Below, in pieces: positions 48,367 through 53,357 of a stretch of DNA of 64,000 bases. The notes under the pieces were generated by a model. It saw nothing but the letters and a program-made list of their open reading frames with translations, made no database searches and had not been told where the DNA came from. The stretch is from Chryseobacterium capnotolerans (GTDB lineage: Bacteria; Bacteroidota; Bacteroidia; Flavobacteriales; Weeksellaceae): assembly GCF_021278965.1 (NCBI RefSeq), contig NZ_CP065589.1, positions 377,001 to 441,000 of the forward strand, written 5' to 3'. The translations under genes were made by a program, and so were the position numbers. Numbering within the stretch: the first letter of the stretch is position 1; each line of letters starts with the position of its first letter.

Positions 48367-49344
48367 ATGAAAGTATTAAAACAAGTAGCCGGTATAGATG
48401 TGTCTCAAAAAGAATTAGTAGTTACTTTAGGTTGTCTATATGAAGATCAAACTATAAAATTTCTAGCTTATAAGGTATTTAAAAACACAGATGTTGGAAT
48501 CCCATTATTGATTAATTGGATTGAAAAACAAAGTGTTGAAGATCAGGAAATTCACTATGTTATGGAAGCCACAGGGGTTTATCATCAGAAGTTCGCTTAT
48601 TATCTTGCTGAGAATAATAAAAAGGTCTATATCGTTTTGCCCAATAAAATAAGTAGCTACCTAAGAACTCTTGATATAAAAACGATAACTGATAAAAGTT
48701 GTTCTCAGGCTATTACTCAGTTCGGTCTTGAAAGAAAATTAAATCATTGGAAAAAACCTGATCAGACTTATAATGAGCTGCAACAGCTTACCAGAGAGCG
48801 CGATCAAATTGTTCAGGAGCGGAATGTGATAAAAAATCAGCTTCATGCAGAAACTATTCAAGCTTCTCCTCATTTAAAAAGTATAGAAAGAATGCAAGCT
48901 CGTATGAATTTGCTCAATGCTCAAGAAAAAGCAATAAAGAAAGATATCGATACTATTATCAATACTAATCCTGTGATAAAACAATTGATAGAACGACTTA
49001 CAACAATACCGGGAGTTGGTGTTTTAACTGCGGTTACTGTTTTGGGAGAGACCAATGGCTTTGAACTGATTAGAAACAAGTCTCAATTATCAAGTTATGC
49101 AGGGTTAGATGTTAGAGAAAAACAATCTGGAACGTCGGTAAAAGGTAAATCACGGATATCAAAAAAAGGAAATAGAATGTTAAGGAAATGTTTGTTTTTG
49201 CCGGCTTTAACAATTGTGAAGTGGGATGATAACTTCAAAGAAGTTTATATAAGACTCACTTCAAAACATGGAATAAAAATGAAGGCTTTAGTAGCAATCC
49301 AAAGAAAAATATTAGAATTGATCTATATTCTTTTTAAAAAATGA
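48367..49344 (+). CDS. IS110-family transposase (RuvC-like DEDD recombinase)
   Basis: 325 residues, normal for the family. The N-terminal RuvC-like domain shows AGIDVSQKEL (D11), VMEATGVYH (E67) and TITDKSCSQ (D109); a coiled-coil middle follows. The C-terminal Tnp domain has LTTIPGVGVLTAVTVLGETNGF and LSSYAGLDVREKQSGTSVKG with its serine. The fourth acidic residue of the usual DxxDA is Cys (C112) here. The gene is full length and looks intact. Confidence 0.93.
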   Translation: MKVLKQVAGIDVSQKELVVTLGCLYEDQTIKFLAYKVFKNTDVGIPLLINWIEKQSVEDQEIHYVMEATGVYHQKFAYYLAENNKKVYIVLPNKISSYLRTLDIKTITDKSCSQAITQFGLERKLNHWKKPDQTYNELQQLTRERDQIVQERNVIKNQLHAETIQASPHLKSIERMQARMNLLNAQEKAIKKDIDTIINTNPVIKQLIERLTTIPGVGVLTAVTVLGETNGFELIRNKSQLSSYAGLDVREKQSGTSVKGKSRISKKGNRMLRKCLFLPALTIVKWDDNFKEVYIRLTSKHGIKMKALVAIQRKILELIYILFKK

Positions 49345-50056: not shown

Positions 50057-50695
50057 ATGAATACACTGGCTAAACAGATTGAACATTTGAATCAGGAATT
50101 ATCTTCTCAGCTTCCACAGGAAATATTAGAAACTTTTGGAAAGTCTATTGAGGACTTGAAGACCAGAAAACTTGAAGAAAATAGCATTCAGATAGGAAAT
50201 CAAATGCCGGAGTTTTCATTACCCAATGCTTTGGGAAAAATTATCAATTCTGAAGACATTCTAAAAGATGGGAAAATGATTTTAGCCTTTTACAGAGGAA
50301 GCTGGTGTCCTTACTGTAATCTGGAGTTAAAATTTTTGCAAGACCATCTTTCCAGAATAAAAAATAAAGGAGCCGCTTTAGTTGCTGTTTCTCCACAAAG
50401 TCCGGATCATTCCCTGAGCATGGCAGAAAAAAATAATATTGAGTTTGAAGTGTTGACAGATGCTGATAATAATTTGGCTAAAAAATTAGGGATCACTTTT
50501 CAGTTACAGGACTTCGTAATTCCTTACTATAAAAGTCTTGGAATTAATCTTTTTGATTTCAATAAAAACAATGATAATGTTTTACCGGTTCCGGCTGTTT
50601 TTATTGTGGATGAAAATAGAATGGTGACGTATAAATTTTTAGATGTAAATTACATGAATCGAGTTGATATGGAAGAATTAATACAAGCATTATGA
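50057..50695 (+). CDS. Peroxiredoxin-like thiol oxidoreductase (AhpC/TSA fold)
   Basis: 212-residue thioredoxin-fold protein. A helical N-terminus of ~45 residues precedes the AhpC/TSA domain with FYRGSWCPYCNLEL (Cys 84 and 87). This puts the redox motif CPYC where true peroxiredoxins have a single peroxidatic Cys after PxxxT. The later LSMAEKNNIEFEVLTDADNNLAKKLG is typical of the peroxiredoxin-like group. It probably detoxifies peroxides or acts as a reductase. The next gene starts inside its stop (ATGA overlap), so they form an operon. Confidence 0.88.
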   Translation: MNTLAKQIEHLNQELSSQLPQEILETFGKSIEDLKTRKLEENSIQIGNQMPEFSLPNALGKIINSEDILKDGKMILAFYRGSWCPYCNLELKFLQDHLSRIKNKGAALVAVSPQSPDHSLSMAEKNNIEFEVLTDADNNLAKKLGITFQLQDFVIPYYKSLGINLFDFNKNNDNVLPVPAVFIVDENRMVTYKFLDVNYMNRVDMEELIQAL

Positions 50696-51492
50696 CAGAA
50701 AAAAGAAAAGGGGCCCGTTCTATAAAAGATATTCCTGCGGATATTTTAATCCAATTGAATAATGGAGAAATTGAAACAGTAAATCTTACGGAATGGCTGG
50801 CTGTTAATCAAAGGTTGTTGCTGGAAAACCTGTTAAAACAGAACAATCGGTTAGAATATTTGCAACCCATTCTGAATAGAGTAGACCAATTGAAAAAACA
50901 AACTGTCAATACGGTCAATGAAGTAATTGGTCTGGGTATTCTTGATCTTACGCTTAAAAATAAGGATGAAGATTTTCTTTCAAAGTTATCCACACATCCC
51001 GCAGATCTGGTTCGTTGCTGGGCTGCTTATACCATTGGGCGGAATAATGCTTTTAGAACAGAAGAAAAATTAAAAAAGATTCAGGATTTTGCTGCAGACA
51101 CGCATTTTGGGGTACGAGAAATATGCTGGATGACAGTACGTCCGGATATTTCCAAAAACCTTAAACAATCATTATCTATTTTATCAGTATGGACAAAACA
51201 TGAAAATGAAAATATCAGACGCTTTGCCAGCGAATCCACAAGGCCAAGAGGGGTGTGGTGTGAGCATATTGATGCATTAAAACAAAATCCAGGATTGGGA
51301 CTAGAAATTTTAGAACCATTAAAATCAGATCCATCAAGATATGTACAGGATAGTGTAGGCAATTGGCTGAATGATGCCAGTAAATCCCAACCAGAATTTG
51401 TAGTAGAAATTTGTGATGAATGGCTTAGGGAGAGTAATACCAAAGAAACTCAATATATTGTCAAAAAAGCCTTGCGTACTATCCGTAAATAA
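50692..51492 (+). CDS. DNA alkylation repair HEAT-repeat protein (AlkD/AlkC-like, COG4335)
   Basis: 266-residue all-helical protein made of HEAT-like repeats (DFLSKLSTHPADLVRCWAAYTIG, then THFGVREICWMTVRPDI, then NIRRFASESTRPRGVWCEHID, then SDPSRYVQDSVGNWLNDAS). The conserved Trp and Arg/Asp pattern matches the AlkC/AlkD group of glycosylases that excise alkylated bases such as 3-methyladenine. It overlaps the peroxiredoxin-like gene by 4 bp, linking redox stress and DNA repair. Which lesion it removes is not known. Confidence 0.82.
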   Translation: MTEKRKGARSIKDIPADILIQLNNGEIETVNLTEWLAVNQRLLLENLLKQNNRLEYLQPILNRVDQLKKQTVNTVNEVIGLGILDLTLKNKDEDFLSKLSTHPADLVRCWAAYTIGRNNAFRTEEKLKKIQDFAADTHFGVREICWMTVRPDISKNLKQSLSILSVWTKHENENIRRFASESTRPRGVWCEHIDALKQNPGLGLEILEPLKSDPSRYVQDSVGNWLNDASKSQPEFVVEICDEWLRESNTKETQYIVKKALRTIRK

Positions 51493-52598
51493 AAGTTATC
51501 CATAATAAGCTAGTGTAAATTGGCTTTTAAATGTATGTGTCTTTTAATTAGATAGTTGTGTTTGTTTTGTTCTCGAAAATAATTCTTGAATACAAATGAA
51601 AACAATCGATTTATAAAAGTTATCCACAATGCAAAAACTTGAATAAACAATCTTCTCAGATCTTTTTAGGAGAAAACGTCAGCTCAAAAAGTAATCATCT
51701 ATGAAAATTTGTGTAATCCGTGGTTGAAAAAGTTATCCACAATATGAGATTGTATAATAAATAGTATCATATCTGTCACAAATGTAGTTGGTTATAAAAT
51801 AAGCCTGTGGAAAAGGTTTTTCGAAAATAAGTCTAATTTATAGTATGGAAAAGTTATCCACAATATCAAAATATGAATTAAAAAATCATTTTAAATTTCT
51901 TCAACTCAACATATCATTAAAAAAGAATCATCTAGGTAAATCTGTACAATTCGTGGTTAAAAAAGTTATCCACAATATGAGATTGTATAATAAATAGTAT
52001 TATATCTGTCACAAATGTAGCTGGTTATAAAATAAGCCTGTGGAAAAGGTTTTTCGAAAATAAGTCTAATTTATAGTATAGAAAAGTTATCCACAATATC
52101 AGAATATGAATTAAAAATCCTATCAATATTTCTTCAGCTCAAAATATCATTAAAAAAAGAATCATCTGTGTAAATTGGTGTAATCCGTGGTTAAAAAAGT
52201 TATCCACAATATGAGATTGTCGATTGATATATACTATATCTATCACAAGTATAGTAGTTTATGAAATATGCTTGGTGAAAAGGTTTTTCAGGAATAACTC
52301 TAATCAGTAAGATGAAAAAGTTATCCACAATATCAGAATATGGATTAAAAATCATCTCAAATTTCTTCAGTTCAAAATATCATTAAAAAAAGAATCACCT
52401 GTGTAAATTGGTGTAATCCGTGGTTGAAAAAGTTATCCACAATATAAGATTATATAATAAATAGTATCATATCTGTCACAAATTTAATTGGTTATAAAAT
52501 AAGCCTGTGGAAAAGGTTTTTCGAGCATAAGTCTAATTTATAGTATAGAAAAGTTATCCACAATATGGAAATTTGAATTTGAATTACACTATTTAAAA
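51493..52598. other. DnaA-box array: candidate oriC or DnaA-titrating locus
   Basis: 1.1 kb without any gene, very AT-rich. Perfect TTATCCACA boxes on the plus strand start at 51620, 51733, 51854, 51966, 52087, 52200, 52321, 52433 and 52554, with steps 113, 121, 112, 121, 113, 121, 112, 121. A near-match TTATCCATA lies at 51496. The inverted related box TGTGGAAAA (TTTTCCACA) occurs at 51806, 52039 and 52506. Both fit the DnaA consensus TTWTNCACA. dnaA itself is not in the window. Confidence 0.7.
51733..52562 (+). repeat. ~233-bp tandem repeat, about 3.5 units
   Basis: Units start at each odd DnaA box: 51733, 51966, 52200 and 52433 (the last partial). Shared landmarks in order are: TTATCCACAATATGAGATTG, ATAAATAGTAT, ATATCTGTCACAAAT, GGTTATAAAATAAGCCTG, TGGAAAAGGTTTTTCG, TCTAATTTATAGTAT, a second TTATCCACAATATCAGAATA, TTTCTTCA, ATATCATTAAAAAA, GTAATCCGTGGTT. 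Units 1, 2 and 4 are closest; unit 3 has diverged in its central box. Confidence 0.85.
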
Positions 52599-53357
52599 TC
52601 ACCATTTTTCGGTCAGATACTTCCAATACCTTTTAGGAACATGTTGTACATGGAGTTTCAGGTTTTTCCTTTCAACAATATTAGTCTTAGTAAAATACCG
52701 TTGCCAAAGTGTTTGATAGTTCTTTTCTTCATCATGAAACTTCTCCTGATAATTCTTGATATCCAGTTTTTCATCAGGATAAAAGAAATCAGCGGTTTCC
52801 AGGTCATAAACAATTCCATAATTTCTTCTCAAGTCATAGATCATCCATTTCTGATCCTGATAGCGGTCACTAAAATGTTTCCTGATTAAAGGAAGAACAT
52901 TGAAATCAGGATCTATTTTTGAAAAGAAAATCCCATCCTGCATCTTCTCGAAACGTACAAATGCTGTCATGCGATGGCTTTCTCTGTCAACCGATTTACA
53001 GATTTTGGAGATTTTCATAACGTCAGTATCTGCGTAGTTTTCCAGAATATTTTTTTCAGGATTCTTTATAGATTGCCTTACTGCTGATAATATTACCTTC
53101 TCCAATTCGGGATCTTCAGATAAGAAAACTTTTAAAAGTTTATGAATACCCTGCTTACCAAGATTTTGTTCTAATTTTTTGAAAACCCGCTCAGATTTAT
53201 CCGTTTGGGTAATAACCTCATGGATCTCAGCAAAAATATTTTCCTGATGAAATCTTTCTCTGTTAACAATTTCAACATCTTTAAAACGGTATTCAAATAC
53301 TTCAAATATCGCTGTGAAAAGACCATCAAAACTGCCGTCGTAAAGTATTGTGTTCAT
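52599..53357 (-). CDS. TIGR03915 family putative DNA repair protein
   Basis: 252-residue protein of the family that pairs with the TIGR03916 radical SAM protein. Matching features are the start TILYDGSFDGLFTAIFEVFE, the SVDRESHRMTAFVRFEKMQDGI block, and the end WQRYFTKTNIVERKNLKLHVQHVPKRYWKYLTEK. The pair is thought to act in DNA modification or repair; no reaction has been settled. Its partner lies 2.5 kb away at 55825, separated by two genes on the other strand. The DnaA-box array begins directly downstream of its stop. Confidence 0.88.
   Translation of the reverse strand: MNTILYDGSFDGLFTAIFEVFEYRFKDVEIVNRERFHQENIFAEIHEVITQTDKSERVFKKLEQNLGKQGIHKLLKVFLSEDPELEKVILSAVRQSIKNPEKNILENYADTDVMKISKICKSVDRESHRMTAFVRFEKMQDGIFFSKIDPDFNVLPLIRKHFSDRYQDQKWMIYDLRRNYGIVYDLETADFFYPDEKLDIKNYQEKFHDEEKNYQTLWQRYFTKTNIVERKNLKLHVQHVPKRYWKYLTEKW

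Follow-up and report, generated by a model that had tools for sequence, protein, structure and literature searches.

The closest described counterparts of the locus reported here are the non-coding DnaA-box loci datA, DARS1 and DARS2 of Escherichia coli, which lie off the replication origin oriC. As far as the cited accounts describe them, datA comprises five boxes together with an IHF site or, in its minimal form, four boxes and one IHF site (PMC4585315, PMC10950094), and DARS1 and DARS2, which lie at set distances from oriC, hold three boxes and six boxes plus IHF and Fis sites, respectively (PMC4585315). A further account presents boxes enriched near the E. coli origin as a titration reservoir, the excess lying within 5–10 centisomes of oriC with the lagging strand favoured, and credits datA and the DARS loci with much of the titration during slow growth (PMC12371093). 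Among the publications listed in searches on DnaA boxes or titration in Bacteroidota, Chryseobacterium and Flavobacterium, judged by their titles, none named such a locus. Here we describe an array of consensus DnaA boxes in Chryseobacterium capnotolerans (assembly GCF_021278965.1, single contig NZ_CP065589.1 of 5,357,258 bases), located in the window, that is, the whole 64,000-bp stretch analysed (contig positions 377001–441000; positions below are those of the window unless given for the contig or in Mb). The array is conserved and is probably a replication-control site, other than the predicted origin; judged from its sequence, it is rather likely to be a cluster of chromosomal DnaA boxes, off oriC, by which the initiator DnaA is bound and titrated.

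Like datA, the array is a non-coding box cluster off oriC at a conserved relative distance (PMC4585315, PMC10950094, as far as these describe datA), and it has the same general features in common with DARS1 and DARS2. It differs from datA in that its boxes match the consensus, lie on one strand at regular steps of 112–121 bp and are tandemly expanded. In addition, exact matches to the E. coli IHF consensus TAANNNNTTGATW, as quoted in PMC10950094, were absent from 32 of the 36 clusters found among relatives and from the window, although this consensus is that of E. coli and may not be the host's; we have therefore not filed the array as datA. The array is also likened to the clusters of DnaA boxes reported for Bacillus subtilis and Streptomyces coelicolor, which belong to other phyla; the present locus is a long-period tandem array in one intergenic gap, with 2 to 10 boxes depending on the species. 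As in the E. coli enrichment, consensus boxes of the genome lean to the origin half, whereas the Chryseobacterium genome has two discrete clusters at 14–16 centisomes and the array boxes read in the fork direction (PMC12371093, for the part that describes E. coli). By analogy, the action of the array would most likely resemble that of datA or of the box clusters in other phyla, and it is a candidate member of either kind.

The nine exact copies of TTATCCACA span 51620–52562, all on the + strand, with starts at 51620, 51733, 51854, 51966, 52087, 52200, 52321, 52433 and 52554 and hence steps of 113, 121, 112, 121, 113, 121, 112 and 121 bp. Our re-scan agreed with the first-pass annotation, made from the sequence alone, in which nine direct copies had been described within 943 bp on one strand at alternating steps of 112–113 and 121 bp. 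The 233-bp tandem period claimed there was also recovered by Tandem Repeats Finder (period 233, 3.8 copies, 51686–52566, + strand), the array being built of 233-bp two-box units. A degenerate box TTATCCATA (51496–51504, + strand), tenth in number and first in order, lies 3 bp past the stop codon of the upstream gene, a position at which many relatives have an exact box (at +3 in the 20 minimal-form loci described below). Inverse TTTTCCACA boxes were found on the − strand at the three places given in the first-pass annotation (51806–51814, 52039–52047 and 52506–52514), but its description of every repeat as holding two direct boxes and one inverse box did not stand. The inverse box is missing from the copy at 52200–52329 and from several relatives (the matches in G005 and G068, judged by eye, and the array part of L073) and is therefore a variable rather than a constant part of the array. 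The gap that encloses the array (51493–52598) measures 1106 bp, has a GC content of 25.9% and contains no stop-free run longer than 64 codons, in keeping with its earlier description as gene-free and AT-rich. Beyond the array, the window contains four exact boxes (22861+, 38282−, 50986+ and 57183+), where only the last had been noticed.

The resulting 13 exact boxes in the window compare with a mean of 0.79 and a maximum of 4 after shuffling its dinucleotides 100 times. Under a Poisson model, the estimated probability that nine boxes fall within 943 bp is approximately 4e-21; this ignores tandem duplication, and conservation across species is therefore the better evidence. Within the window array, units of the first type are 72–98% identical and those of the second type 84–93% identical, indicating that some of the duplication is older. 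At 52160–52198 (+ strand; many similarity matches) a box is preceded by one copy of a dispersed repeat, roughly 39 bp long and containing ATCTGTGTAAATTGGTGTAATCCGTGGTTAAAA, and similar stretches are dispersed through genomes of the genus.

Relatives of the locus were identified by a search with the TIGR03915 protein encoded by the downstream flanking gene, and the best 80 of 101 were kept as loci with organism names. Where no adjacent upstream gene was detected, the gap was taken as about 1.1 kb beyond the TIGR03915 gene, and no more than two exact boxes occurred in the remainder of any such locus. Ten loci from nine relatives, one of which has its genome spread over two contigs, carry the array within the same convergent gene pair and on the same relative strand. 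Two loci examined for their weak DNA similarity (L082 and L083) had neither a syntenic flank in common nor an exact box. A gap with at least two boxes was found in 36 of the best 80 loci, and 44 had no cluster. The 36 gaps together hold 165 exact boxes, 164 on one strand and 1 on the other. Boxes were present in 33 of the 38 loci in which the upstream gene was detected as a neighbour and in 3 of the 42 in which it was not, one of these at a contig end. On a midpoint-rooted tree of the TIGR03915 gene (81 rows), one group of 29 rows, to which the window belongs, carries boxes in all rows; a comparison of the locus with other genomes of the genus had been proposed in the first-pass annotation. 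Eight more box-bearing rows lie outside this group, seven of them within a mixed group and the eighth being L098, giving four changes in box presence over the 81 rows. The number of boxes at the locus ranges from 2 to 10 between species, and their spacing also shifts. Based on these comparisons, the array locus is judged to be old and kept by selection.

Three exact boxes are present in 22 loci, and 20 loci selected on this basis were aligned as the minimal form, in which the first box begins 3 bp past the upstream stop codon, the second at about 182 bp and the third at about 300 bp, with steps of about 179 and 118 bp. The box columns are identical in 20 of 20, with a mean pairwise identity of 71% in the other columns and 68% in those more than 12 bp from a box. 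Because these loci had been selected for exact boxes, all 80 gaps were also scanned, unfiltered, for the extended core; this returned 162 exact, 6 one-mismatch and 31 two-or-three-mismatch sites, one of the 6 being in a locus without a cluster. In the minimal form, the invariant run at box 2 comprises 18 bases (AAAAGTTATCCACAATAT) and that at box 3 comprises 16, while at box 1 only TTATCCACAA is invariant; two TTAAC-type motifs precede box 2. The conservation of boxes in place within a species group while the spacers diverge strengthens the reading of the array as a titration site.

The 18-mer core (at most one mismatch) was found in 50 of 118 genomes of the genus, 46 of them with at least two matches as counted by hand, against 1 of 118 for a reversed control. 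In at least nine genomes among those listed, the core also matched outside the main locus. Other genera account for 128 of the 148 family genomes searched, and 22 of the 128 matched once each, save one with two matches at contig ends; the reversed control matched in one. In g24, another genus of the family, about 395 bp separate a box in the context AAAGTTATCCACATTATG from the 5′ end of a 16S rRNA gene (L219:5705 and L220:5373), and many further core matches of g24 are near contig ends. These single-box matches were rejected as clusters, both inspected loci adjoining an rRNA operon and having no cluster.

The position of the chromosome origin was examined in sampled stretches of the genome, of which about 914 kb (small overlaps included) was scanned for boxes. 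GC skew changed sign near 4.94 Mb, being negative before and positive after this point, and within 4.88–4.99 Mb its cumulative minimum fell at 4.942–4.944 Mb, far from the array at 0.429 Mb; a skew comparison had been suggested by the first-pass annotation for its reading of the array as an origin. To either side of the array the skew was positive in the sampled stretches (300 kb, window and 495 kb). Stretches at 1.15 and 5.03 Mb went against the trend, and both have long reading frames only on the − strand. The parS pattern TGTTNCACGTGNAACA has only two matches in the genome, at 4.935 and 4.937 Mb, which flank mnmG, an arrangement seen in 6 of 6 genomes (this one and five others searched). 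Within the scanned DNA, three regions had at least five boxes within 600 bp at up to one mismatch: the array, a cluster at 312 kb and a cluster at 4.9429 Mb with seven one-mismatch boxes and no exact one. The last is located between pgk and rnr, as are weak-box clusters in 5 of 5 relatives, and five of these six genomes have no exact box there. Skew, parS and weak boxes thus place the predicted oriC between pgk and rnr at contig positions ~4,942,900–4,943,600, at a distance of 843 kb, or 16% of the chromosome, from the array. For Elizabethkingia meningoseptica, an oriC with three DnaA boxes has been predicted (PMC8994065). The dnaA gene of C. capnotolerans lies outside the window at 2.929 Mb, and its product was the only protein of the genome matching PF00308 (Bac_DnaA) at E <= 0.001, so that by this test there is no Hda-like paralogue. 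The DnaA C-terminal domain contains GGKDHSTV, a sequence that recognises the DnaA box; the domain resembles known box-binding domains.

Among 13 genomes with both features on one contig, mnmG and the array were separated by 15–19% of the chromosome in 12 and by 24% in one; six genome sizes were rounded, one genome consisted of two contigs and one (G077) was 75% complete. The reading direction of the boxes is that of fork movement in 13 of 13 genomes, which is weak evidence because inversions across the origin preserve it automatically. Consensus boxes genome-wide number 94 in the origin half and 34 in the other (array and micro-ORF repeats excluded), with 46 boxes assigned above 4.1786 Mb from list order.

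A compact cluster of consensus boxes, partly inverted repeats as judged by eye and with an AT-rich flank, is located at contig 311,901–312,072, 117 kb from the array and 726 kb from the predicted oriC. In nine relatives with both features on one contig, clusters of this type lie 92–136 kb from the array. The corresponding places (L204–L210 and L215–L217) had at least three exact boxes within 700 bp in 10 of 10 array-bearing relatives, chosen since a box pair had already been seen there, and nine of the ten have at least one flanking gene in common with the C. capnotolerans locus. Three array-free genomes chosen in the same way have box clusters 17–19% from mnmG, and for these three no flanking gene in common with the 312-kb locus was found. 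The facing boxes and AT-rich flank of the 311.9-kb cluster had suggested an oriC, which was rejected on skew and parS.

Three further sites with the box sequence were noted in the genome. A second copy of the two-box unit is present at contig 502,064–502,191 in an unrelated gap, with a similar dispersed repeat nearby; the units can therefore be copied elsewhere. A facing pair of consensus boxes lies at contig 3,566,251–3,566,279, about 90 bp upstream of a gene for a ParA-type ATPase that is followed by parB. This facing-pair pattern matched in 118 of 118 genomes of the genus, near-identical pairs recurring among the matches listed, the parA neighbour being that of the C. capnotolerans genome; control of parAB by DnaA is possible. 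An apparent second TTATCCACA array at 4.762 Mb was rejected, the motif there lying at the end of 16 tandem micro-open reading frames (micro-ORFs; contig 4,761,767–4,763,638). These have a 119-bp period and encode 20-residue peptides MTQVDKPIDNDFFDFNLIC(G/K), of which 9 have a final G and 7 a final K; they adjoin genes for a SagB-type dehydrogenase, an ABC transporter and a TonB-receptor-like protein, and look like a row of modified-peptide precursors.

Upstream, the array is flanked by a gene (50692–51492, + strand) for a 266-residue protein with a partial match to the Pfam profile DNA_alkylation, which we take to be HEAT-like. The convergent downstream gene (52599–53357, − strand) encodes a 252-residue putative DNA repair protein matching TIGR03915 (DUF4130). 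A gene for an IS110-family transposase (48367–49344) is located upstream of the array at a distance of about 2 kb and had no match in the syntenic relatives compared. An Rfam scan of the window gave two matches, both under threshold, and among 18 predicted base pairs in 12 of the 20 minimal-form sequences only one had a two-sided change; a structured RNA element was rejected on these grounds. A plasmid iteron origin or phage origin was likewise rejected, the flanks being the DNA_alkylation and TIGR03915 genes and no relatives of the array being found among 72,556 plasmid and 50,697 phage records.

We infer that DnaA binds the array boxes. The array would bind and titrate DnaA and would perhaps also speed its inactivation. 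DnaA may fill the consensus boxes of the array ahead of the weaker boxes of oriC; passage of the fork about one third along the arm would then double the sites, so that free DnaA would fall and re-initiation would be delayed. The three-box form may be the older one, with longer arrays arising by tandem duplication of the two-box unit. A more specific proposal, which we regard as tentative, is that the array acts as an evolutionarily tunable initiator sponge, a polar, same-strand row of high-affinity sites about one third along one arm that would be lengthened or shortened by tandem duplication, so that box number, 2 to 10, would set the time of re-initiation of a species. It would act together with the partly palindromic cluster, which is closer to the origin by about 0.1 Mb, and with an oriC of mostly weak boxes.

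Several observations weigh against titration by a conserved array. The 44 of 80 relatives without a box cluster at this locus, and the four changes on the gene tree with L098 and the seven mixed-group rows among box-free rows, are two of these. The invariant core at boxes 2 and 3 exceeds the length of a DnaA box, and the E. coli IHF consensus is missing as described above. Box identity between copies of one array is partly due to recent duplication. The constant position and strand may be inherited synteny, as an inversion across the origin keeps both, and the excess of boxes in the origin half was counted without a control motif. Finally, an array at 16 centisomes with boxes in the fork direction is unlike the E. 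coli enrichment described in PMC12371093.

The alternative that retains most is a locus acting on the ATP/ADP state of DnaA, by DARS-like nucleotide exchange or datA-like hydrolysis (DDAH), which we consider unlikely. The near-fixed three boxes and motifs such as the paired TTAAC before box 2 suggest a defined complex and not only a sponge, but the lack of the IHF consensus in 32 of 36 clusters speaks against it, as do a box number of 2–10 and shifting spacing in comparison with the constrained E. coli loci (PMC4585315, in the part that describes them). The first-pass annotation had left the choice between an origin, a datA/DARS-like titration locus or both; titration fits the conserved boxes and diverging spacers, and the origin did not stand.

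It is quite unlikely that the core serves as the site of some DNA-binding protein other than DnaA, such as one of the nucleoid or of segregation, and matches the DnaA box partly by accident. Invariant runs of 18 and 16 bases, more than nine, would be explained in this way; the short invariant run at box 1, the lean of consensus boxes to the origin half genome-wide and the facing box pair before parA in this genome argue for DnaA instead. A neutral or selfish tandem repeat carrying box-like sequence by chance is improbable. The second unit at 502 kb, the 39-bp dispersed repeat within units, the variable copy number and the core matches elsewhere in at least nine listed genomes are what such a repeat would leave, but the 20 minimal-form loci keep three boxes among other columns only 68–71% alike, and the boxes are therefore retained independently of any amplification. 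An element acting locally on the flanking genes, through either DnaA-controlled transcription or a 3′-end signal of the convergent pair, appears decidedly improbable. Minimal-form boxes begin 3 bp past the upstream stop codon, and boxes are present in 33 of 38 gene-adjacent loci; however, L122 and L125 have three boxes though no adjacent upstream gene was detected, in five loci the gene is present but boxes are not, the gap separates two 3′ ends, and scanning the window and L115 for terminators gave none within the gap. That the array is oriC is very unlikely, and a chromosomal or second origin of any kind here is scarcely credible, since consensus boxes in an AT-rich gap are set against skew, parS and a weak-box cluster that put oriC 843 kb away, positive skew to either side and the 44 of 80 relatives without a cluster.

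Replication timing in Bacteroidota seems to have been little studied. For the predicted titration of DnaA by the array, the syntenic series of 2 to 10 boxes beside box-free lineages would let the model be tested comparatively and by deleting a non-coding stretch.
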